Positions 12,181-63,420 of a stretch of DNA of 64,000 nt are shown here, one piece after another; position 1 is the first letter of the stretch; each line of letters opens with the position of its first letter. A program made the position numbers and the translations under genes. A model generated the notes under the pieces. That model saw nothing but the letters and a program-made list of their open reading frames with translations. It searched no databases and had not been told where the DNA came from. The DNA comes from a virus: positions 1 through 64,000 of IMG/VR virus record IMGVR_UViG_3300048837_001089. One strand, written 5' to 3'.

Positions 12181-12627
12181 TCAGCCGCCGATCGTGAAGG
12201 CAGGCTGATCCGGTTCTTTCGGCGCGTCACCGCTGACGGGCGGCTCGCCATCGTAACGGACGCCGCCGTTTTCCCCGACTGTGGCAAAGGCTTCGCCTTC
12301 TCCGTCGAGGGCGCCTTGCAGATCGCCGGCACGGGCGGGGCTGTACGGCAGGACGTAATAGATCGGCTCGCCGGAGCCGCTATCGAGCAGGACGTAGATG
12401 GCTCCGCTGTCTGTGGCCGTGGGTACGACGATCTTGGCGCCGACGACCGTATAGTTGCCGGGCGGCGGCGCGGTGAACTGCGGCTGGCCGAGCGGGACGT
12501 ACATCGCAAGCGCGGCAAGCACTGTCATCACAGGCAGCGTCAGGGCCGGGGTGCGCCGCGTCGACACCCATGCGAAGCCGCACAGGAGCAAGGCGAGCGC
12601 CAGCCAGACGGAAGCGATGAGGGTCAT
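12181..12627 (-). CDS. Membrane-anchored hypothetical protein
   Basis: 148 residues from ATG 12627 (a longer frame up to 12921 is low-complexity Arg-rich and rejected). Two hydrophobic segments (residues 2-20 and 27-43) are followed by a soluble C-terminal part with a beta character (YTVVGAKIVVPTATDSG). Function unknown. ATGA overlap with the preceding membrane gene. Part of a run of small membrane genes after the protease/channel module. Confidence 0.6.
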   Translation of the reverse strand: MTLIASVWLALALLLCGFAWVSTRRTPALTLPVMTVLAALAMYVPLGQPQFTAPPPGNYTVVGAKIVVPTATDSGAIYVLLDSGSGEPIYYVLPYSPARAGDLQGALDGEGEAFATVGENGGVRYDGEPPVSGDAPKEPDQPAFTIGG

Positions 12628-53363: not shown

Positions 53364-53995
53364 CAAGCCGCCGCCCTTCCGCCCACGCGCCACCGCGGCT
53401 TTTCGGCGGTGGCCTGCCCGCGCGCCTTCTTCTCAAGCTGGCTTATGCGCTTGGTGTTGACGCCCATGCCTTCGCTGATCTCGTGCAATTCCTCGCCCAT
53501 GGCGCGGCGCAGAAGAATGCCGCGCAGCCGGTCGGTCTTCACCTGTCCAAGTGCGTCGGCTACGGCTACGGCGTCTTCCTGATTTGGCGCGGAGTAGCCG
53601 GGTAATTGCCAGAAGTAGTCCGCGCCGTACTTCTTCTGACGTCGGGATTCGCGACCACAGCGCCTGCGCTCGACCGTCATGGTTGACCGCACCTGCCAGC
53701 GCAGCCACGTCGTGAAATTTGCATAGTCGCCGGCAGGGTTGCGGAAGCCTTGCCAGTTGCCGAAAATGACGGTCAGGGCCTCCTGTATGAAGTCGGCGCG
53801 CTTTGGCTCATCGACATACCTGCGCGACATGACCTCTATCATAGGCATGTGCGCCATGACGCGGCGGTCAAACTCCGCGGGGCGGTCTGCTGGCGTGCTG
53901 CCTACCGGCAGGCTGTCGTTCGCGGGTGGGCCGCTGTCGGGGGCGCCGCTGTCGGGGGCGGCGCTGGCGGGTGTCATGCTTTCGGCGTGTATCAT
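53363..53995 (-). CDS. Phage-encoded sigma factor-like protein
   Basis: 210 residues. After a Pro/Ser-rich N-terminus with NDS, a sigma region 2-like part: FDRRVMAHMPMIEVMSRRYV, KRADFIQEALTVIFGNWQGF and TTWLRWQVRSTMTVERRR. A C-terminal region 4-like HTH: LRGILLRRAMGEELHEISEG then TKRISQLEKKAR. This is an ECF-type two-region plan. It may redirect host RNA polymerase to late or moron promoters. Coupled by ATGA with the nuclease gene upstream. Confidence 0.72.
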   Translation of the reverse strand: MIHAESMTPASAAPDSGAPDSGPPANDSLPVGSTPADRPAEFDRRVMAHMPMIEVMSRRYVDEPKRADFIQEALTVIFGNWQGFRNPAGDYANFTTWLRWQVRSTMTVERRRCGRESRRQKKYGADYFWQLPGYSAPNQEDAVAVADALGQVKTDRLRGILLRRAMGEELHEISEGMGVNTKRISQLEKKARGQATAEKPRWRVGGRAAA

Positions 53996-55014
53996 GTTGC
54001 TACCTCGATATTATCCGTGCGGCCGTCCACCCACGTGCTGCCGTCAGCCATGCGGTAGGTGATTGTCTCTGCGGCTTCGTCCACCTCCAGCAACTCGCCG
54101 GGGACTAGTGCGGGAATAAACAGATGGGCCGGGCAGGATGCTTTCTGCTCGTCAGTCCCGATTGGCTTCGCCCAACGGGCGCACGACCATGCGGCGTCGC
54201 CGTGCATTTCCGGCGTCGAGTGCAAGCATGTGCGGCAACTGACGCGAGCCATCGCTCCGGCGTGGCAGACGTCGCGGTGGCGACAGAATCGGCATTGGAA
54301 AAACTCCGGGTTATCCGAGATGCGTGAAGGCGGCTCGGCAGCGTTGATTATGCGCTCGGCTCGCGCCAGCGCGCGCAGCGTCCAATCGGCGTCGTAGTGG
54401 ACGCGCTCGGCGTAGAGCGTGTCGGTGTTTTTGCACGCGGCCAGATAGAGCGCGCGCGTCAGACCGAAGGCGTGCATCCCAAGCTGACACTGGCCGTAGT
54501 GCAGCGGCTTGCTGACCTTGATGCCCTGCCCCTGCTGACCGCCGACCGGCTGGCCGGCGATGGTGGTCTTCTCCGGGTATGTCTTGCGCGGGTCGTGCTT
54601 CTGAAGCTCCTTCATGCCCTTTTCATTGGTGGACTTGAACTCCAGAAGGTGCTCGGTCTTGGGCGCCTCCGGTACGCCCACCGCCTTGCCGTCGCACTTT
54701 CCGCGGACGTGGTTGCCTACGAGCCGGATACGGTCCTGCTGGCCGTAGACCTCGACGCCGATGCGCTCCAGTTCCTCGACGAGCCTGTCTTCCTCGCGGT
54801 TGCCGGTATCGAACAGCCGCAGTTTGCGGCCGTCCAGTTGCTCCGGTTGCGACGCCCACCGAAAGCCGAGCCACAGGGCTTTGTCGCACTCTGTACCGGC
54901 CTCACCGACGCTGATGCCGAGGCTGTCATAGTGACGGTGTGCGGCCTCGTATGCGGCATAGATCGCGGCGACGGTCGGCGTTTCGGCCGGCAGGTCGGTG
55001 GGGATGGTCGGCAT
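53992..55014 (-). CDS. PD-(D/E)XK nuclease with Cys cluster (Cas4/RecB-like)
   Basis: 340 residues. VRGKCDGKAVG and TEHLLEFKSTNEKGM give the D and E-x-K catalytic residues; KPLHYGQCQLGMHAFGLTRA is the QxxxY-like motif; FFQCRFCRHRDVC plus later Cys residues could hold an Fe-S cluster. Such nucleases make ssDNA for recombination. Lies among recombination genes. Confidence 0.78.
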   Translation of the reverse strand: MPTIPTDLPAETPTVAAIYAAYEAAHRHYDSLGISVGEAGTECDKALWLGFRWASQPEQLDGRKLRLFDTGNREEDRLVEELERIGVEVYGQQDRIRLVGNHVRGKCDGKAVGVPEAPKTEHLLEFKSTNEKGMKELQKHDPRKTYPEKTTIAGQPVGGQQGQGIKVSKPLHYGQCQLGMHAFGLTRALYLAACKNTDTLYAERVHYDADWTLRALARAERIINAAEPPSRISDNPEFFQCRFCRHRDVCHAGAMARVSCRTCLHSTPEMHGDAAWSCARWAKPIGTDEQKASCPAHLFIPALVPGELLEVDEAAETITYRMADGSTWVDGRTDNIEVAT

Positions 55015-55254
55015 TTAGGTGGTGGACTCCGAGTTGCTTTCGCCTTCCCAAGCTACTGAGTGACCAAGAAGCTTCAGAATGTGGAGGTACACCTGGTCAT
55101 CGGTGTAAGACTGATCGTCGTAGCAATGGGCGTGCGGCTCCAACTCAAGAACGATTTCACCGTCAATGGAAACACGAGCGCCTTCTGCGTAAGACACTCC
55201 GCAAGCTTCGCATTTGTACTCGTCTTGGAGCCTCTCGATATGGATTTTGCTCAT
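55015..55254 (-). CDS. Small zinc-binding hypothetical protein
   Basis: 79 residues; YKCEACGVSYAEG and later HAHCYDD suggest a zinc knuckle. Stop abuts the nuclease start. Function unknown. Confidence 0.6.
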   Translation of the reverse strand: MSKIHIERLQDEYKCEACGVSYAEGARVSIDGEIVLELEPHAHCYDDQSYTDDQVYLHILKLLGHSVAWEGESNSESTT

Positions 55255-55511
55255 GCTGTTGCTCCTATGGATGCTGGCGCGCCAGGCGCGTGGACCGCGA
55301 CCTGCACGCCAAGCGCGTTGGCTAGAAAGTTGCGGAAGGGGGAGATGGGCGCGTCTGGATCAAACATTCGGTACTGGCCGTCGCACTCGGTGATATCCGC
55401 CCATTTCCTGTTGACGACGCGGTCCAGCAACAGATCGGCGTCTTCGTGATTTCCGGCGCGCAGTTCGCTCAAAGCCAAGCAAATCAGGTCGTAAACATCC
55501 TCGTCCATCAC
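55251..55511 (-). CDS. Small hypothetical protein
   Basis: 86 residues, helical N-terminus (DVYDLICLALSELRAGN). ATGA overlaps on both sides. Function unknown. Confidence 0.6.
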   Translation of the reverse strand: MMDEDVYDLICLALSELRAGNHEDADLLLDRVVNRKWADITECDGQYRMFDPDAPISPFRNFLANALGVQVAVHAPGAPASIGATA

Positions 55512-56575
55512 CCCACCCTCATCGGCATGGCGACGACGCGCAGGTTGTCATTGGCGGGGCTGGTAAACAGCACGGGGCTGCCTGCATCCGCCAGCGCGAT
55601 GCGCACCTGCCCGTCCGGCATGGCCGTCAGCACGTCCGACAGGTATTGTGCGTTGAGGCCGACCTCGACAGGGTCGTTGCTATACTCGCAAGCAACGGAG
55701 TCCGACGCCTCACCAGCCCCACGTGCCGTCAGGTCGATGGAGTCGTTTGCGGCGGACAACTTTACGCTGCGCCCTCGCTCGTTGGAAATCAGCACGACGC
55801 GATTTGCGGCAGCCCGCAGGGTGCCAGCATCGACAGCGATGATCTTGTCGTTGTTTCGCGGAATGACCCGCTCATAGTCGGGGAACGTGCCATCGATAAG
55901 CTTAGACGTAATCACCACGTCGCCGGACGTCAGGCGAATCTTGGTCGACGACAACTCGACCCTGATGTCGCCGGACGGGATAAGGCCGACCGTCTTGGCC
56001 GGCACGATGACCGCCGGAAACTCGTCGGCTAGCGGCGCGCTATGCACCGACATGCGATGCCCATCCGTAGCGACCGCCACGATGTTGCCGTCCAGGGGGC
56101 GAAGATAGACGCCGTTCAGGTAGTAGCGCACCTCCTCGTCGGACATCGCGAACTTCACCGGCGCCACCAGCGCCGCCAGGTTGATGTTGAATGCAGCCGG
56201 CAAATCGCCGGCCGGCATGTCCGGGAAGTCGTCGACCGGAAGCGTCTCAAGCTTGAAGCGTGACTTGCCGGCCCGCAGCACGACACCGCCGTCTGCGTCC
56301 GCGTCAATGGACACCTCGCCGCCGGCGACCTTGTTGACGATGCCGGTAAGCAGCTTTGCGTCGATGCAGACGGCGATGTCGCCGGCTCCGCCAAGGCCGG
56401 TTTCGGCGTCGATACTGCCGGACACTTCGATGTCCAAATCTGTCGCGGTGACGGCCAGCCTGTTGTCGGCCGCGACGAGACGAACCGTCGTCAGGATGGG
56501 GATGGTGTTGCGCGCTTCGACAACCTTGGCGGTGTCGGCAAGCAGGCGCGCGAATGCATGGCGTTCTACACGCAT
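55508..56575 (-). CDS. dnaN: DNA polymerase III beta subunit (sliding clamp)
   Basis: 355 residues from ATG 56575. The three-domain clamp is visible: VEARNTIPILTTVRLVAADN, then AVATDGHRMSVHSAPLADEF in domain 2, then FPDYERVIPRNNDKIIAVDA and the C-terminal LFTSPANDNLRVVAMPMRV. This last stretch replaces the usual PMRL end with an ANDN insertion. A phage-encoded clamp that may hold host polymerase on phage DNA. Confidence 0.93.
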   Translation of the reverse strand: MRVERHAFARLLADTAKVVEARNTIPILTTVRLVAADNRLAVTATDLDIEVSGSIDAETGLGGAGDIAVCIDAKLLTGIVNKVAGGEVSIDADADGGVVLRAGKSRFKLETLPVDDFPDMPAGDLPAAFNINLAALVAPVKFAMSDEEVRYYLNGVYLRPLDGNIVAVATDGHRMSVHSAPLADEFPAVIVPAKTVGLIPSGDIRVELSSTKIRLTSGDVVITSKLIDGTFPDYERVIPRNNDKIIAVDAGTLRAAANRVVLISNERGRSVKLSAANDSIDLTARGAGEASDSVACEYSNDPVEVGLNAQYLSDVLTAMPDGQVRIALADAGSPVLFTSPANDNLRVVAMPMRVG

Positions 56576-56599
56576 GGTATAACTCCGTGTTTGGAAGGG

Positions 56600-56619
56600 T
56601 GGCGGGCCGAAGCCCGCCA
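56600..56619 (-). promoter_or_regulatory. Stable hairpin before the clamp gene
   Basis: TGGCGGGC / GCCCGCCA with a 4-base loop (on the - strand a TTCG tetraloop) lies 25 bases before the clamp ATG. No T-run follows, so it is more likely an mRNA stability or translational element than a terminator. Confidence 0.45.
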
Positions 56620-56639
56620 TAACGACCGCGTGGGGTTTG

Positions 56640-57254
56640 CTACGCCGCCCGCTTGGAGCCCCACGGCGTCTTTGCCGTGCCGCCTGCGGGTTGTGCCGTG
56701 GCCGCTGGCTGCGCCGCCTGACGGTTGTCATTGGCCGGCTTGGCGGCCTTTGCGGGCATCGTGCCGTCGCCGATGACACCAAGCTCCGGCAGTTCCTCCT
56801 TGGCGTTGTCGTCTTCGTAGAAGAAGTGCTCGATCTGGTTCTTGTCCTTGTAGTATTCGCCGCTGCCGTCGTTCTTCGGCTGGCCGGCCTGAATGCCGAT
56901 CTCAGCCACGAATGACTTGTAGAGCAGTTCGTCGTGGCTCATGCCCCGCTGGACGATCACCTGCACTGCGCGACAGAAGCGGTCGAACATGGGCTTGCCG
57001 TAGCGATACGCGCCGTTCTTGAACTCGTCCGCGTGCAACATTGTATAGTACGCCCAGAATTTCCGGCCCTTGAACTCTTCGGGCTCCTGCACCTCGAAGG
57101 TGATTGCGGCCTGCCGGCCTTTGCCGTCCTTGGTTTCCGGGAAGTCGATGGCCTCGGCCCAAATCCGCGCGTACATATGCGGGATGATGCCGCCCCCGCC
57201 CTGCTTGTCGGTGGATTCAAAGTCGTGGCTGATGTCGAAATCGATAACTGACAT
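56640..57254 (-). CDS. DUF669-type ssDNA-binding protein
   Basis: 204 residues. FDISHDFESTDKQGGGGIIP and AAITFEVQEPEEFKGRKFWA, then FDRFCRAVQVIVQRG match DUF669, a phage single-stranded-DNA-binding OB-fold family often next to recombination genes. It ends in a low-complexity tail with ANDN. Confidence 0.82.
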   Translation of the reverse strand: MSVIDFDISHDFESTDKQGGGGIIPHMYARIWAEAIDFPETKDGKGRQAAITFEVQEPEEFKGRKFWAYYTMLHADEFKNGAYRYGKPMFDRFCRAVQVIVQRGMSHDELLYKSFVAEIGIQAGQPKNDGSGEYYKDKNQIEHFFYEDDNAKEELPELGVIGDGTMPAKAAKPANDNRQAAQPAATAQPAGGTAKTPWGSKRAA

Positions 57255-57293
57255 GAATGTGTGGTCCTTTTGTTTTTCTGGTGGAGTGCCGGG

Positions 57294-57554
57294 CTAGGCG
57301 GACTTGGCGGTCCTGGCGTGAGTGACGCCGCGGAAGAACGCCCCCATGAAGCCGAGTGCCGCTCCGACCTGCCAAAGCTCAAGACCGATGGTGTTGACAC
57401 CGGCGCGGTGCAGAAAGCCGAGGATGGTTTCGGTGAAGAACAGCCCGACGACCCAGCCCGTAAACGCACCCAAGAGCGTTGTGGTCAGCGGGAGGATGAG
57501 CAGCGTGACTGCCACAAGCAGGGTAACGCCGGTCAGTTTTGTGAATGCGGTCAT
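57294..57554 (-). CDS. Small membrane protein
   Basis: 86 residues; TM helices at about 8-45 and 60-75. No family. First of a cluster of four tiny membrane genes in the replication region. Confidence 0.6.
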   Translation of the reverse strand: MTAFTKLTGVTLLVAVTLLILPLTTTLLGAFTGWVVGLFFTETILGFLHRAGVNTIGLELWQVGAALGFMGAFFRGVTHARTAKSA

Positions 57555-57560
57555 ATTCGG

Positions 57561-57728
57561 TCAGTCTCCCCAGAGAAAGTATGTGTCGCCGATGATAAGG
57601 CCGTAGAGTGCAGCCGTGGCCGCAAATACATAGATGGCCGCTGCCAGTCCGATGCCGTCGATCACAAGCCCGATGATGATAAGCGCCGCAGCAATCAGCA
57701 TTGCCGCGCCGAGGTAGACGTGGGTCAC
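57561..57728 (-). CDS. Small membrane protein (55 aa)
   Basis: 55 residues from a GTG that overlaps the ATPase stop (GTGA). Two TM helices (AAMLIAAALIIIGLVIDGIG and AAAIYVFAATAALYGLIIG). Function unknown. Confidence 0.6.
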   Translation of the reverse strand: MTHVYLGAAMLIAAALIIIGLVIDGIGLAAAIYVFAATAALYGLIIGDTYFLWGD

Positions 57729-58540
57729 GCCGCATCCGCTTCGTCGTCGTTATCGTTGTCCGCCACGACGGCATTGCGCTGGAAGTAGAAGTCCAGCGCC
57801 TTGAAGCCCTCGCCGCGCTTGAATGGCAGCGTGCCCTTTTCAATGCCGTAGCGATTACCGGCAATGAAGCCGGGCCGCTCCTGCACTGCGATCAGGATTT
57901 CACCACCACCGACGCCCCGCGTCTTCTGCTTATTGAAGCCCGCGTCCTCCTTCTTGATGCTGACGGCCTGATGCAGGAAGCCGATAAGGTCGGCTGCGTC
58001 GATAAGCACCCCGACCGCGTCATCGCGCAGGTTTGGCATGTAGCGCGGGTAACTGTCGGTCGTGACGCCGGGGACGGTCTTCGCCTTGACGTGGCAAATG
58101 ACCACCACGTAGAAGCCGGCCTCCTTCAGTTCGAGCATCTTGCCGACGAAATCATGCCAAGTTTCCAGCGCCTTGGCGTATCCCTTGCCGTATGGGATGT
58201 CCTCGATGCTGGCGACCTTCGCTTCCTCGCACACCTTGTCGTGGATTTTCTGCTCAAGCCCGTCCGCGGAATCCAGCACGAAGGTCTTGCGGTCGTGCTC
58301 GGTCTGCAGCATCCAGTCAGCCTGGTCGAGGATGTCCTGATAGGACTCCGACACGCCGAAGGATTTCATGGTCACACCGGCCGGGGCGCGCTCGCCTTTA
58401 CCGGTGCGGACGTAAAGCGGGCTGGGAAACTCGCTCGCCAGCGTGGTCTTGCCGGTTTTTGCGCCGGCATAAAGCACGCAGAAGGCCGGCTCGGTATCGG
58501 CCGTTTCCTCTGGTGATCCGTCATTCCAGTTTAGCGCCAT
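57725..58540 (-). CDS. Sak4-like RecA-fold ATPase
   Basis: 271 residues. Walker A LYAGAKTGKTTLA, Walker B-like KTFVLDSADGLEQ, and FYVVVICHVKAKT are the features of the AAA_24/Sak4 family of single-strand annealing-associated ATPases. Works with SSB-like DUF669 next to it. Ends with a DNDND acidic tail. Confidence 0.85.
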   Translation of the reverse strand: MALNWNDGSPEETADTEPAFCVLYAGAKTGKTTLASEFPSPLYVRTGKGERAPAGVTMKSFGVSESYQDILDQADWMLQTEHDRKTFVLDSADGLEQKIHDKVCEEAKVASIEDIPYGKGYAKALETWHDFVGKMLELKEAGFYVVVICHVKAKTVPGVTTDSYPRYMPNLRDDAVGVLIDAADLIGFLHQAVSIKKEDAGFNKQKTRGVGGGEILIAVQERPGFIAGNRYGIEKGTLPFKRGEGFKALDFYFQRNAVVADNDNDDEADAA

Positions 58541-58541
58541 A

Positions 58542-58628
58542 TCAGGCCACCACCTTCCACAAGATCAGAATTGCTATGGTTGCTGCGCTCGCCCAGAAGG
58601 CGAGCGGCCACGGGTCAGGCGCGGTCAC
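58542..58628 (-). CDS. Very small membrane protein (28 aa)
   Basis: 28 residues from a GTG; one TM helix (PLAFWASAATIAILILWKVV). Overlaps the upstream gene by 14 bases. Unknown; start uncertain. Confidence 0.45.
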   Translation of the reverse strand: MTAPDPWPLAFWASAATIAILILWKVVA

Positions 58629-58791
58629 GGCCGGCCCACAGTGCTGTTGCCACGCCGGCCACGAAGGCCGCCGTAATCCAGGGCGCGACCCACAGGCCGG
58701 CAATGACGCCGGCCGCTATCAGCCCCAAAACCCAATAGGGCGGTGAGGTGTGGGGCTCGTACGGCTCGCCGTCCTCGATGAGGTGTTCCAT
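58615..58791 (-). CDS. Small membrane protein (58 aa)
   Basis: 58 residues, MEHLIEDGEPYEPH then two TM helices. ATGA-type overlap with the upstream gene at 58791. Function unknown. Confidence 0.6.
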   Translation of the reverse strand: MEHLIEDGEPYEPHTSPPYWVLGLIAAGVIAGLWVAPWITAAFVAGVATALWAGRDRA

Positions 58792-59123
58792 CAGCCGGCA
58801 CCTCCAATGGCGGACTGGCGTCCGGCGGCGAAGCCCTGCGCGTAGGCGGTGCCGACCAGTAAGGCGACCTCATCCTCGCTGTCGGCGCCGAACGGGCCGT
58901 ATTCATCCCGCAGATTATCGACTTCGGCGGCGGCGCAGGCTTTGGGCGGGTCTGTCCATTCAGCCACAAGGGCCAGCCCGCTGCCACCGAGTGTGGAAAA
59001 CCCGTCGTCATCCCACGACCCGATTGGAGCGCCATTAACCCACCCGCCGCGGACTGCCCTGTACATCGGGCCGACCCTGCGCCCGTCACGGGTGACATAA
59101 TATTTCCCCTGCTCGATCTGCAT
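58791..59123 (-). CDS. Hypothetical protein
   Basis: 110 residues from ATG 59123 (a GTG at 59126 is also possible). QGKYYVTRDGRRVGPMYRAV is a beta segment common in phage early proteins; the end is helical. Function unknown. Confidence 0.6.
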   Translation of the reverse strand: MQIEQGKYYVTRDGRRVGPMYRAVRGGWVNGAPIGSWDDDGFSTLGGSGLALVAEWTDPPKACAAAEVDNLRDEYGPFGADSEDEVALLVGTAYAQGFAAGRQSAIGGAG

Positions 59124-59524
59124 CACGCGGCGCCTCGCGTTTTTGCGACACGCAGATCGCGGGCCTTTGTGAAGTCGATAAGCTCGCCGCCCGTCTTTTT
59201 GGCGTTGTCATTGGCCGCTGCGCCGTTGTCACCGGCGGCGGACTCCCCGTCGAAGGGCTCAAGCTCGGAAGGGTCAATGGGGGCCAGCGTCGCCCCGAAG
59301 AACGGCATGATTGCGCCGCTGCCGGCAAGCTGCACGTGGTACTGCAGGCCCATCACGTCGGACCCGACGACGATGCCGAAGACGTTGGTGTTGAGCTTGA
59401 ACTCCACCCAATCGCCGTAGTCGTAATATCTGTCCGGGTCGTATGCCGTCGTGCCGACCTCGGCACGGCTGTTTCCGTGGTTGCCGTGGCCTGGCCTGCT
59501 GCCGGATTTGTCGTGGTTGCTCAT
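59123..59524 (-). CDS. Hypothetical protein
   Basis: 133 residues, His/Gly-rich N-terminus, a small beta barrel-like centre (DWVEFKLNTNVFGIVVGSDV) and an ANDN linker. Function unknown. ATGA overlap with the upstream gene. Confidence 0.6.
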   Translation of the reverse strand: MSNHDKSGSRPGHGNHGNSRAEVGTTAYDPDRYYDYGDWVEFKLNTNVFGIVVGSDVMGLQYHVQLAGSGAIMPFFGATLAPIDPSELEPFDGESAAGDNGAAANDNAKKTGGELIDFTKARDLRVAKTRGAA

Positions 59525-59751
59525 GCTGCCTCCAAAAGCGAAACTGCCGGGAGTGTAACGTCGACGTAGTTGAATGTCGTGGAGCAGAAGCCGCCTTCGG
59601 ATGAGCGGTTCCAGACGCGCTTCGTCATGGTGCCCGGCCTACTGCGTCTTGGCCTTTCAAAGTAGGCCCTCGGTGCTCCGGGTGTTGATAGGTAGTAATC
59701 GGGCAAATAAGCCCCGGACGGCGCTGACGGCCGCCATGTTGCACGTGCCAT
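59521..59751 (-). CDS. Small basic hypothetical protein
   Basis: 76 residues, Arg/Pro-rich. It starts a new unit: a conserved 38-bp element lies at 59817-59854 upstream. Function unknown. Confidence 0.5.
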   Translation of the reverse strand: MARATWRPSAPSGAYLPDYYLSTPGAPRAYFERPRRSRPGTMTKRVWNRSSEGGFCSTTFNYVDVTLPAVSLLEAA

Positions 59752-59816
59752 TTGTCGTGCCTTGAACTAGTGTTCGGGGGTGGGGTTTAGCCGGCCTTGT
59801 CGGCGGGTCTTATTTT

Positions 59817-59854
59817 TGATTACGGGTAATTTGATTCAGATATGCAAGCGGTTT
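59817..59854 (-). promoter_or_regulatory. Copy 2 of the 38-bp upstream element
   Basis: TGATTACGGGTAATTTGATT (59817-59836) and GCAAGCGGTTT (59844-59854), 34 of 38 bases identical to 14932-14969. Lies in a 144-bp non-coding gap, upstream of 59521-59751. Confidence 0.6.
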
Positions 59855-59895
59855 TTTTGGTGTTGGGGTTGTTTGGCTGGCTGCTGCCCACCGGG

Positions 59896-60249
59896 CTAGC
59901 ACCAGGGCTCCCGGCGGCCCGTCCACGTGCGGGCAAGGCCGGCGGCTACTAGCTGGTCGCCTACGTCACGGCCGTCGACCGTGATAAACGCGAGCGTCCT
60001 GCGGTACTTGTCGAGCTTGTGGCGCGTGATGACCACCTTCCCGCTTGCCAGAATGGCGGCAAGACGCGCCTTGGCGCGCTGTGCCAGCCGGGTTTCGTAA
60101 TCGCACCGGCCGTTTATTTCCGGCGCGTCGATATTGGCGATGCGCACGCTTTCGGCGCCGATGCGGATGCTGTCGCCGTCCCACACCTTGACCTGCGTCG
60201 GGGTGCAAAGGTTGGCGCAAATCAGGGCTGTGATGATGGTGTGGGTCAT
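59896..60249 (-). CDS. Staphylococcal nuclease-like (SNase) protein
   Basis: 117 residues. VKVWDGDSIRIG, then IANIDAPEINGRC and QRAKARLAAILASGKVVITR, DKYRRTLAFITVDGRDVGDQ give the SNase OB-fold with Asp/Arg/Glu-type active residues. The first 18 residues (MTHTIITALICANLCTPT) look like a short signal peptide, so it may act outside the cytoplasm. Ca-dependent nuclease in known members. Confidence 0.85.
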   Translation of the reverse strand: MTHTIITALICANLCTPTQVKVWDGDSIRIGAESVRIANIDAPEINGRCDYETRLAQRAKARLAAILASGKVVITRHKLDKYRRTLAFITVDGRDVGDQLVAAGLARTWTGRREPWC

Positions 60250-60839: not shown

Positions 60840-61003
60840 TTGCCCGCCGCGCTTCCCGCATGGGTTGCGAGGTAGGGATGGCAGCGGGCAATGAGGATGC
60901 AGACCGGCGCTGGGTGGATGGGAAGCGGAGCAATCATGGCCGGTCTGCAAGCTGTCGGGGCGGCGCGTACCCACTGGGTTTCGTTGCCCGATTGGCCGCC
61001 CCG
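60840..61003 (-). repeat. Stem-loop cluster A: 3 units of the phage hairpin family
   Basis: Three hairpins at 60840-60891, 60901-60946 and 60956-61003, spaced 9 bp apart. Arms: TTGCCCGCCGC/GCAGCGGGCAA, AGACCGGC/GCCGGTCT, CGGGGCGGC/GCCGCCCCG. Interiors all read N10, then TGGGTTGCG, TGGGAAGCG or TGGGTTTCG, then N9, then TG. They fill the gap between the 212-aa gene and the exported protein gene; no other function visible. Confidence 0.9.
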
Positions 61004-61009
61004 TGCCGG

Positions 61010-61648
61010 TCACACCGGCAATTCGTCTACGTCGGCGCGCAGCTTCGCGGCCTGCGCAAGCGTCACGACCTTTGACACAATCTGTTCGGCGCGCGTGCCC
61101 TTTGCGCGAATCAACCTCAGCCACGACATCTCGCGGTACTCGCTGCCGATCCGGCCAGCCTTCTCCGCGCATATTGCGTCAAGCTGCTCCATCGTCGCGT
61201 CGCCCAGCCGGACAGTCCTGCCGTTGCCCAAGCCGTACCGAATATCGAATAGCGTCTCCTGGCTGGCGCGGCTGCCGCTTGCGTAGCTGGCACGTACCGT
61301 GGCCGTAAAGCCGGCCCCTATTTTCTGTTTGGCTTTTTCGGAAAGTTTTGCCGCGAGGCCGACCTTGGCTGCTCCGTCCGACTCCGCTGCGGCGAGGATG
61401 CGCTTGTTGTCACTCAGTCGGACGTGGGCAATCATGCTTTTTGCCTGTTCGAGCAACATGTAGTCGCGGAGAGATTCGCGGGCCAGCGCTTCGCGGTAGA
61501 GTGCCGTTGCCGCCTTGGCTTCATCGCCATTGCATGCGTCGAGTATACGGCGTGCTGTCGATGCGGGCGTCTCGTCATGCGCGCCCGTAACGCGCTGGCG
61601 ACGCGGCTTGAAGGCTTTGGTTGTTCTGGTTTCTGGTGAGATGAACAT
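61010..61648 (-). CDS. Hypothetical early protein
   Basis: 212 residues from ATG 61648 (the longer frame to 61723 would start inside hairpin cluster B). Basic N-terminus (TRTTKAFKPRRQRV), then helices (SLRDYMLLEQAKSMIAHVRL). No domain recognised. It is flanked by clusters A and B, so it could be the protein that binds them, but nothing in the sequence shows that. Confidence 0.65.
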   Translation of the reverse strand: MFISPETRTTKAFKPRRQRVTGAHDETPASTARRILDACNGDEAKAATALYREALARESLRDYMLLEQAKSMIAHVRLSDNKRILAAAESDGAAKVGLAAKLSEKAKQKIGAGFTATVRASYASGSRASQETLFDIRYGLGNGRTVRLGDATMEQLDAICAEKAGRIGSEYREMSWLRLIRAKGTRAEQIVSKVVTLAQAAKLRADVDELPV

Positions 61649-61676
61649 TTCAGTGCTCCGTTGGGTTTTGGGGTAA

Positions 61677-61969
61677 GCGACGCGGCGCCCGTAGATTGGG
61701 GTTCGCCCGCCGTATGGCCGCATCGCTATGGGTTGCCTGACCGGGCGATCGAGTACCGGGCTGCGTCACCAGTTTGGCCCGGTCAGGCGTTGGTTAAGAG
61801 GGCGGCGGCTTCATCATGAGTTTCGCAAGCAGCATGGCCGCCCTCTATTGGTTACCCCGCCGCCGCGCGTCCTCGGCCGGACTGCGGTCCTCCTCTGGCA
61901 GCGACGGGAATTGGTGTGGCGGGGCGGCGGATTCATGATGGGTTTCGCCAAAGTGGTGGCCGCCCCGCC
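61677..61969 (-). repeat. Stem-loop cluster B: 5 units of the phage hairpin family
   Basis: Units at 61677-61726, 61735-61788, 61797-61846, 61856-61908 and 61918-61969, 8-9 bp apart. Arms differ in each (for example AGAGGGCGGC/GCCGCCCTCT and GCCTGACCGGGC/GCCCGGTCAGGC) but always pair; G-U pairs on the - strand rescue mismatches in units 1 and 4. Cores TGGGGTTCG, CGGGCTGCG, TGAGTTTCG, CGGACTGCG and TGGGTTTCG. They fill the gap between two early genes. Confidence 0.92.
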
Positions 61970-61974
61970 TTCGG

Positions 61975-63213
61975 CTACGCCATAGAGCGTCGCCATTCCG
62001 AAAACAGGTCTGCGACCATGCACTTGCCGAGATATCGCAGGGCGCGGTTGGTGGCGTGCTTCTTGTACGATTCCTTGTGCTCGCCCTTGGCGTTAATCGC
62101 AGTCGTGACAGGCAGGCCCAGCTTGTCCGATTCCAGCCTTACGCGCTTCGCGAAAATGCGCTGCTGCGGCGTCAGGTCAGGATTGGCGTCAACGTCCTCG
62201 CCAAAGGCGGGCCGCCACTTGCCCATGCCGAGAATCATCGGCCCGGTCGCGTTCCACAGGACGCTTCGCCGCTTGCGGTTGTAGCCCTCGGTGACCCACG
62301 TGTCCTCCGTGGCTCCCGCACCTGGGTTGCCCTGCCTGTGGCCGTCGATAACCGCCACCCCAAGCCGCTTCCACAAGGCGGACACGGACTTGAAGTCGCC
62401 GACTACAAAAACCTCGCCGGCCTTGCCGAATTCATTATCAGTGCGGTTGACGCTGGTGGCTTCCGCGATGATGGTAGCGAGTGACACGTCGCCCAGGCCC
62501 TTCGTCTTTTTGCAGAAGTCGATGATGGGAAGTTTTCGAAGCTCGCGGATCATAACCTTCGCTCGGTGCTGGATTTCCGCCTCAAGCGGCTCCTGCGCCC
62601 GCAGGTACGGTGCGATGGCCTCGTTGAGTTCTGACGCCGGGTCCGCCAAGGCCTTCTTGTATTCGGCGTCTACAAACTTTTCGGCGGCTTTTGCTTCGGG
62701 CGAATCGCGGTCGCCGAACCTCTCGATGCCCAGAAAGCCGCGCACAATCGCCTTACACTGGTTTGTCAGCTTTGTGTTCGCAACGATGGCGCGCTGCCGT
62801 AGACGATGCGCGTGCCGGATGGCGAGGATTGCCGGCAGGTGCGCCGGGTTGGTGCGGAAGACGGGGGCGTCCTCACCTTGGGTTTCGCAGATGTTATGGC
62901 CGCCGTCTTCCGTTGGGGAACCAGCGTGCGGCGGTTCGGCAGTGGGTTTCGCCCGCTTGATGGCCGCATCGCTGGTTTGGGTGTTGCCGACCGCGTCTGG
63001 ATAATGGGTATCGACCGGTGACTGGCAGTCGGCAATAAGTGGGCTGGTGGCGTAGTCCGGGTGGGTTTCGTCGCGCCCTTGGCCGCCAGCTTTGGTGTTG
63101 CCCTTGGCGGCTGCCCCGGAGGCGCCGTCGCGGGCTTTTCGTATGCGCACTCTCGGCGCTGAATCTGTCATCGCCGCGAGTGCGGCGGGGTTCATGGGTA
63201 CGTCGTCAAACAT
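61975..63213 (-). CDS. IS110 transposase C-terminal-like early protein with a hairpin-coding linker
   Basis: 412 residues from ATG 63213 (AGGAGAC upstream). Residues 1-40 are basic; 41-120 are a low-complexity linker coded by hairpin cluster C. From 140 helices (AHRLRQRAIVANTKLTNQCK), then FCKKTKGLGDVSLATIIAEA, LWKRLGVAVIDGHRQGNP and GYNRKRRSVLWNATGPMI follow the order of the IS110 (Transposase_20) C-terminal domain. The catalytic Ser region is not preserved (RQGNPG) and no DEDD N-terminal domain is present, so it is probably a repurposed nucleic-acid-binding protein, not an active transposase. Confidence 0.62.
   Translation of the reverse strand: MFDDVPMNPAALAAMTDSAPRVRIRKARDGASGAAAKGNTKAGGQGRDETHPDYATSPLIADCQSPVDTHYPDAVGNTQTSDAAIKRAKPTAEPPHAGSPTEDGGHNICETQGEDAPVFRTNPAHLPAILAIRHAHRLRQRAIVANTKLTNQCKAIVRGFLGIERFGDRDSPEAKAAEKFVDAEYKKALADPASELNEAIAPYLRAQEPLEAEIQHRAKVMIRELRKLPIIDFCKKTKGLGDVSLATIIAEATSVNRTDNEFGKAGEVFVVGDFKSVSALWKRLGVAVIDGHRQGNPGAGATEDTWVTEGYNRKRRSVLWNATGPMILGMGKWRPAFGEDVDANPDLTPQQRIFAKRVRLESDKLGLPVTTAINAKGEHKESYKKHATNRALRYLGKCMVADLFSEWRRSMA
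62857..63090 (-). repeat. Stem-loop cluster C: 4 units inside the coding sequence
   Basis: Units at 62857-62910, 62921-62975, 62984-63035 and 63043-63090. Arms GAAGACGGGGGC/GCCGCCGTCTTC, CCAGCGTGCGGC/GCCGCATCGCTGG, TTGCCGACCGC/GCAGTCGGCAA, GCTGGTGGC/GCCGCCAGC. Cores TGGGTTTCG, TGGGTTTCG, TGGGTATCG, TGGGTTTCG. The gene stays open throughout; the encoded linker lacks order. Confidence 0.9.
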
Positions 63214-63235
63214 GCGGTGTCTCCTGTTGTGGTGG

Positions 63236-63420
63236 CGCAAGCGGCGCCCCTAGAATGGTTTTCGACGGTACGGTGGCCGCTTGCGTTTAGGGAGCCCGGT
63301 CGGCGGTGGACCAATGGATTGCGCTTGTTTTGTGGCCGGCCGGGCTGTTGGTGGATTTGGGCGGGTTGGGGGTGATGGCGCGCATTTCATGGGTCACGCG
63401 GCGGCGCTGGCCATCACCCC
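63236..63420 (-). repeat. Stem-loop cluster D: 3 units in the early leader
   Basis: Units at 63236-63285, 63294-63345 and 63369-63420, in the leader between the early promoter and the first gene. Arms CGCAAGCGGC/GCCGCTTGCG, GCCCGGTCGGC/GCCGGCCGGGC, GGGGTGATGGC/GCCATCACCCC. Cores TGGTTTTCG, TGGATTGCG, TGGGTCACG. A possible 18-codon leader frame (63464-63520, - strand) lies before them; otherwise the 434-bp stretch 63214-63647 holds only regulatory DNA. Confidence 0.9.

Follow-up and report, generated by a model that had tools for sequence, protein, structure and literature searches.

The window analysed here is a stretch of 64,000 nucleotides (nt) of viral DNA (IMG/VR record IMGVR_UViG_3300048837_001089, positions 1 to 64,000), and its minus strand carries, between 60840 and 63420, an array of 14 clean stem-loop units and one degenerate unit grouped around and within a gene, tas. 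On sequence grounds, this locus is a stem-loop-type TIGR-TasA system, a kind that is already known (Faure et al., Science 2025; PMC12045711) and that belongs to a newly described class of RNA-guided machineries for DNA binding. The phage that bears it is temperate and has relatives among phages and prophages whose hosts are Rhizobiales. As a whole, this is probably the right explanation, although that confidence applies mainly to the family and to the anatomy of the units.

The Tas protein is encoded by the minus-strand open reading frame (ORF) 61975–63240, in which the best start is the ATG at 63213 behind an AGGAG. The NCBIfam profile TIGR_Tas_endo (NF052498) matches the window Tas with an E-value of 8.3e-14 (relatives down to 5e-19, from three relatives), and the NCBIfam IS110 profile matches the C-terminal half with an E-value of 1.6e-6 over profile positions 116–248 of 343 only; in the 421-aa P0001, the profile matches cover residues 199–417. 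An AlphaFold2 model built from five aligned relatives is confident mainly from residue ∼118 onwards, and the only significant PDB matches found for it by Foldseek are TasH–tigRNA–dsDNA complexes (21kl_B, E 1e-4; 9w04_B, E 5e-4). Single-sequence searches of PDB and Pfam with Tas gave no match. Residues 1–117 match no family and have a predicted local distance difference test (pLDDT) score below 50. A RuvC, HNH or DEDD domain was not found by profile, and we assign the TasA type because no nuclease profile was found and this part is unstructured in the model. A preliminary description of this stretch, made from the letters alone, had proposed an IS110-like C-terminal half without the DEDD domain, and both points agree with these results, as does the outcome of the structure prediction, which gave the expected fold. 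The catalytic Ser of the IS110 C-terminal domain appears, by eye, to be absent in the GHRQGNPG region.

Each unit has, on the minus strand, the form stem-CCA-N9-CG-N4-CCA-N9-CG-stem and thus holds two 9-nt spacers. The preliminary description had recognized two variable segments per hairpin, but its lengths of 10 and 9 nt, taken from the plus strand, give way to a symmetric 9 + 9 unit, because the first base of every 10-nt segment is a G that completes the second CG box in the minus-strand reading. The unit motif occurs 20 times in the window as against 3.75 ± 1.87 times in shuffles, and a full-unit scan of the same genome gives 14 matches, all clustered here, compared with none in a shuffle and 0–1 in each block-shuffled genome; the scan misses the weak-stemmed unit 62963 and picks up the degenerate unit 61898. 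The 9-bp stem is 93.7% paired (57.6% in shuffles), its covariation score of 0.878 (0.177 shuffled) is reached in 0 of 500 shuffles, two-sided changes are seen in eight of the nine stem pairs, and the folding z-scores of four units lie between −3.5 and −4.6. Over 115 units from 13 phage genomes, the CG boxes are kept in 102–103 and the second CCA in 98, and the N4 loop is mostly AAAC. At positions 3 and 6 of spacer A in the same set T is rare (11 and 14 units), for no evident reason. A search of Rfam at E ≤ 1 returned no relevant match. The units are clustered before tas, within its first third, in the interval between tas and a conserved partner gene (gene X), and after gene X (Table 1).

Table 1. 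Features of the TIGR-TasA locus in the window (units are identified by the position of the first C of the first CCA)
Feature	Position	Strand	Basis
TIGR stem-loop unit 1, 5′ of tas (63410)	63369..63420	-	Unit scan, stem covariation
TIGR stem-loop unit 2, 5′ of tas (63335)	63294..63345	-	Unit scan, stem covariation
TIGR stem-loop unit 3, 5′ of tas, adjoining ribosome site (63276)	63235..63286	-	Scan, covariation
tas, TasA type (Nop domain only), 412 aa	61975..63213	-	ATG with AGGAG, TIGR_Tas_endo profile, Foldseek
N-terminal Tas motif NPAALAAMTDSA, upstream of in-ORF units	63160..63198	-	Common to relatives with and without in-ORF units
TIGR unit 4, within tas ORF (63082)	63041..63092	-	Scan, covariation, phase test
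TIGR unit 5, within tas ORF (63025)	62984..63035	-	Scan, covariation, phase test
TIGR unit 6, within tas ORF, weak stem (62963)	62922..62973	-	Covariation, phase test
TIGR unit 7, within tas ORF, ends at start of Nop part (62899)	62858..62909	-	Scan, covariation, phase test
Nop/IS110-C-terminal-like part of Tas, about residues 118–412	61978..62862	-	AlphaFold2 confidence, profile matches
TIGR unit 8, directly past tas stop (61959)	61918..61969	-	Scan, covariation
TIGR unit 9, degenerate (61898)	61857..61908	-	Unit scan
TIGR unit 10 (61837)	61796..61847	-	Scan, covariation
TIGR unit 11 (61777)	61736..61787	-	Scan, covariation
TIGR unit 12, 5′ of gene X (61717)	61676..61727	-	Scan, covariation
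Gene X, 212 aa, conserved tas partner	61010..61648	-	Homologue in 31/34 tas loci
TIGR unit 13, 3′ of gene X (60995)	60954..61005	-	Scan, covariation
TIGR unit 14 (60939)	60898..60949	-	Scan, covariation
TIGR unit 15 (60881)	60840..60891	-	Scan, covariation

Relatives were recovered with an alignment query (a single-sequence scan was unsuccessful), which gave 34 viral tas loci and 5 in genomes of Brucella, Ochrobactrum, Metarhizobium and Falsochrobactrum; the named hosts of the clade are these four and Sinorhizobium, and Rhizobium phage RHph_X2_25 is the sole relative in the annotated phage collection. Because the relatives share descent, counts over them are not independent trials. We aligned eight pairs of near relatives and compared the units that lie at the same place (n = 54). 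Both spacers are identical at no more than 5/9 positions in 47 of these orthologous units and at 7/9 or more in five, and two units are mixed. In the 47 replaced units, the spacer positions are 11–40% identical, compared with 23–30% in a control of different units (∼25% overall, that is, chance), and the free positions of the boxes and the N4 loop are likewise at the control value, whereas the stem positions are 83–100% identical (free stem positions in the control mostly 28–40%). For the pair L173/L174, 37 of 162 spacer bases are identical, which is the level of chance (binomial P = 0.59), against a background identity of 91% in intergenic DNA and 77% at the fourfold sites of tas. Thus, the whole loop interior is exchanged between near-identical loci with stems and flanks kept, and point mutation at the background rate is insufficient to explain spacers at chance identity. 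Between L173 and L179, four units are shared whole or nearly so and four others differ at random, so that the change takes place per unit and in both spacers together. Such change needs either a dedicated exchange or recombination within a large pool of alleles, and the data fit both. It is no artefact of metagenome assembly, as genomes of named isolates contain loci identical to L173, L179, L188 and L187.

Spacers are also shared across positions, with 33 matches of at least 8/9 against ∼13 expected. As nine of these are orthologous units of L173/L179 and L180/L203, a shuffling of cassettes between positions finds little support. L180 and L203 are 97.7% identical overall, and a single unit ∼65 nt upstream of tas differs in both spacers with its stem nearly the same, a difference that we read as a recent replacement. 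In L173, L174, L179 and L185, the unit ∼50 nt upstream of the tas start, by the ribosome site, keeps the near-identical spacers TACCAACCT and CAGCCGCAA, and the other units of these loci are mostly replaced. No target of this pair was found in its own genome; the conserved unit may be a fixed regulatory one.

Targets were sought as one strand consisting of spacer A, 0–2 bp, and the reverse complement of spacer B, a geometry that we derived from the cutting rules stated in PMC12045711 (8-nt 3′ overhang, cut at the fifth base). The own-genome and cross-phage searches covered four geometries, with mismatched spacer pairs as the null. One match to unit 63410 in the window (12463–12482, one mismatch) was not counted, since it has another geometry and a 2-bp gap. 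Spacer pairs conserved between relatives were then searched, and four pairs were tried. For the pair GGTGAAAGC/GTCATAATT, which prophages L173 and L179 share, there is an exact 18/18 target without a gap near the start of a prophage tyrosine integrase gene in Brucella pseudintermedia, read as GGTGAAAGC+AATTATGAC (integrase-start target GGTGAAAGCAATTATGAC); ∼0.002 such matches are expected in the 5 related genomes, and it was found in one. A homologous integrase in a viral contig carries the identical 18 bases, and a third homologue, from the TIGR-bearing prophage L180, differs at one base; the target is in no other of 248 family members. Reversed-pattern controls gave no match in any genome. 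From its sequence, the integrase site is likely to be a real target. The place of this integrase in B. pseudintermedia is the one expected if it is part of the same prophage as tas locus L203, a locus almost identical with L180. The target itself is therefore probably carried by a prophage with a TIGR system. When the integrase starts L214, L215 and L216 are compared, the mismatch in the L180 integrase stands opposite the fifth base of spacer B, and this variant could be an escape allele.

On balance, we lean towards a function in nuclease-free RNA-guided interference with competing temperate phages. Each minus-strand hairpin would serve as a guide: in the loop above its stem, box C (CCA) and box D (CG) occur twice, one such pair framing each of the two 9-nt spacers. 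The nuclease-free TasA, a Nop protein, should bind the hairpin, once processed, in dimeric form and would then hold DNA in which one strand presents spacer A followed, after a gap of 0–2 bp, by the reverse complement of spacer B. Because TasA has no nuclease, the bound complex would block transcription or recombination at the target site rather than cut it. The targets would be competing temperate phages, and the guides may be renewed by swapping of the whole loop interior while the stem stays.

Several observations weigh against this account. None of the units in the window has an identified target, and with pattern-selected contigs left out, 204 units searched against 1.86 Mb of phage DNA showed no clear surplus of paired targets. 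For a second conserved pair, there is a match in an S24-type repressor gene that belongs to another prophage, but a weak one, with a 2-bp gap and ∼0.1 matches expected; as the two sightings of this candidate (G037/L285) are one prophage, they are not independent, and we treat the site as a lead. The two other pairs of the four gave no match in the collections or genomes searched. Since there is no clear target excess, the case for competitor phages is made by one strong and one weak site. As to the family, the TIGR_Tas_endo scores of 52–69 bits are under the NCBI curated cut-off of 100 bits, and expression of the units, their processing and their binding by Tas are predictions.

The different spacers of near-identical prophages in different host species would also suit a TIGR-TasA aimed at host chromosomal genes. 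We consider this unlikely, given an exact target in a prophage integrase, a second candidate in a phage repressor, and no match beyond those two prophage genes when the four pairs were searched in sets of between 5 and 248 related genomes. A slightly smaller chance still is given to regulation of the phage's own genes, such as those for lysogeny. A nuclease-free TasA suits this role, tas adjoins an XRE-type repressor gene (∼63650, plus strand), and a repressor gene is also near tas in Rhizobium phage RHph_X2_25; however, in the own-genome search, true spacer pairs did no better than mismatched pairs, and wholesale spacer change between near-identical phages fits poorly with fixed targets of their own. 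Interference with competing temperate phages is thus the function that we prefer.

The preliminary description had placed four hairpins inside the ORF 61975–63213, and these are indeed units 63082, 63025, 62963 and 62899. It had also raised the question of whether homologues in other phages have hairpins in the linker: hairpins are present in other phages, inside the linker in some and not in others. In 10 of 24 close relatives, one to four units lie within the tas ORF in the interval between the N-terminal motif (a short P-A-x-I/L-x-A-A) and the Nop part, that is, in a translated linker, and the remaining 14 have a short N-terminal part ahead of Nop. The length ahead of Nop grows with the in-ORF unit count, by 24 aa for each unit (r = 0.92, n = 24). 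Of the 49 in-ORF units, every one falls in reading phase 1 or 2 and none in phase 0, a bias that, with open phases allowed for, has P = 6e-9 if units are independent and P = 0.003 if each of the 14 loci is counted once; an automatic stem-based grouping of these units merged almost all of them and was dropped from the frame test. In the distant loci L110, L077 and L058, the units in the coding part are also in phase 1 or 2 (start codons judged by eye). Most of the 11 units carried by locus L194 are copies of a repeat that is 111 nt (37 codons) long and comprises two units, and a unit 16–24 nt past the tas stop recurs in relatives. In L077, from a more distant Tas clade, two units lie in a loop of the Nop part itself, at codons 194 and 214.

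The N-terminal motif, the ribosome site, the scaling of linker length and the empty phase 0 argue that translation runs through the units. From their sequences, these most probably do double duty, being translated and also read out as RNA, with one orientation for both. Open frames are cheap, as units outside ORFs are open in 61–70% of frames, and the in-ORF hairpins might be untranslated, with Tas starting after them and the upstream frame open by chance. This is very improbable, however, since a conserved motif and a ribosome site stand upstream of the in-ORF units, the window has no ATG, GTG or TTG from the last in-ORF unit to deep inside the Nop part, and linker length is proportional to unit number with no unit in phase 0. 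With four units within the tas message, processing of guides would probably compete with Tas synthesis and may make Tas expression self-limiting.

Tas proteins with a Nop domain are related to the IS110 C-terminal domain, and Nop-only TasA is proposed in PMC12045711 to be ancestral to IS110 and not derived from it. IS110 with its bridge RNA shares with the present locus a related C-terminal RNA-binding (Nop) domain and an RNA loop that holds two guide segments, which here would likewise be directed at opposite strands; it differs in that no DEDD domain is seen here and many guides take the place of a single RNA with two loops (no search aimed at insertion-sequence ends was made). The exapted RNA–protein system suggested in the preliminary description was in substance correct: the IS110-related nuclease-free domain and the two-segment RNAs stand, the segments being 9-nt guide spacers like those of TIGR RNAs. 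A decayed transposase need not be assumed, as TasA is a described family and the only significant PDB matches are to TasH complexes. A non-functional IS110 remnant with leftover hairpins, for which the IS110 profile match to the C-terminal half of Tas might speak, can be practically discarded in view of purifying selection on tas across relatives (codon positions 1 and 2 conserved at 88–91%, position 3 at 60%) and the recurrence of hairpins, partner gene and architecture in dozens of loci.

According to the text of PMC12045711, a second type of TIGR array has palindromic stems in place of edge repeats and loops with two 8–12-nt spacers framed by box C/box D; a Peromyscus gut contig there bears a locus with a nuclease-less TasA and 13 stem-loops in three subarrays, and a Tas dimer, box C/D contacts, dual-strand pairing and Tas-dependent processing are described. 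The present locus agrees with this in all anatomical features that were tested and is alike in its Nop-only Tas, palindromic stems, framed spacers, subarrays round the gene and occurrence in phages, but has four units in the translated tas ORF, the partner gene X and a Rhizobiales clade with named hosts. The main text of that paper contains no mention of in-ORF units, gene X, the clade, loop replacement or a native target, although its figures may show in-ORF units or gene X. The dual-repeat TIGR systems (TasR, TasH, TasA) likewise have two 9-nt spacers, a CCA box C and the assumed target geometry of A plus the reverse complement of B, whereas here box D is CG (UG in theirs), stems replace edge repeats and there is no nuclease domain. 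Type IV and type V-M CRISPR, a parallel drawn in PMC12045711, are also nuclease-free RNA-guided interference between mobile elements, but their proteins are unrelated, and guides here appear to be renewed in place, whereas CRISPR adds them at one end.

The gene X family (∼190 aa) has a homologue on the same strand in 31 of 34 tas loci, in most of which it lies between clusters of units at a distance of 500–1500 nt upstream of tas; the window and L168 have it downstream. No Pfam, NCBIfam or PDB relative was found, and against PHROG, one PHROG of unknown function matched 1 of 20 members. The predicted model (pLDDT 80) is mostly helical and gave no fold match. The TIGR-ParB operons (tasParB) described in PMC12045711 also have a second conserved gene adjoining tasA; an identity of gene X with ParB finds no support, as it has no ParB match in Pfam, NCBIfam or PDB.

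On the minus strand at 53992–60249, genes for a Cas4-type exonuclease, a DnaN clamp, a Sak4-like annealing protein and an SNase-like nuclease adjoin the system, and several of these replication/recombination genes are also close to tas in Rhizobium phage RHph_X2_25. The XRE-type gene is divergent from tas, which places a control region between them. Elsewhere, the first 40 kb of a 91-kb contig (IMGVR_UViG_3300024246_000004; L164, L165) carry ∼20 single, scattered TIGR-like units, many with AAAC-type loops, that lie mostly but not solely on one strand and are not clustered round one gene; no Tas relative was detected in this contig.

With guide units placed within the gene of their own effector, coding sequence and guide RNA would overlap in an unusual way that offers an evident route to self-limitation. 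The Discussion of PMC12045711 leaves open the role of nuclease-less TasA, its natural targets, and how spacers arise and change, and the present clade bears on all three, offering isolate prophages that can be compared unit by unit, whole-loop replacement, an exact target in a rival prophage integrase and a conserved partner protein. We tentatively suggest, at somewhat less than even chances, that the stem-loop arrays are actively rewritten in place by a dedicated process, possibly involving gene X, that replaces the ∼32 nt inside the loop, namely the two spacers together with the boxes and N4, and leaves each unit its own stem, even in the coding sequence of tas. This would provide temperate phages with a fast, programmable means of silencing rival prophages.
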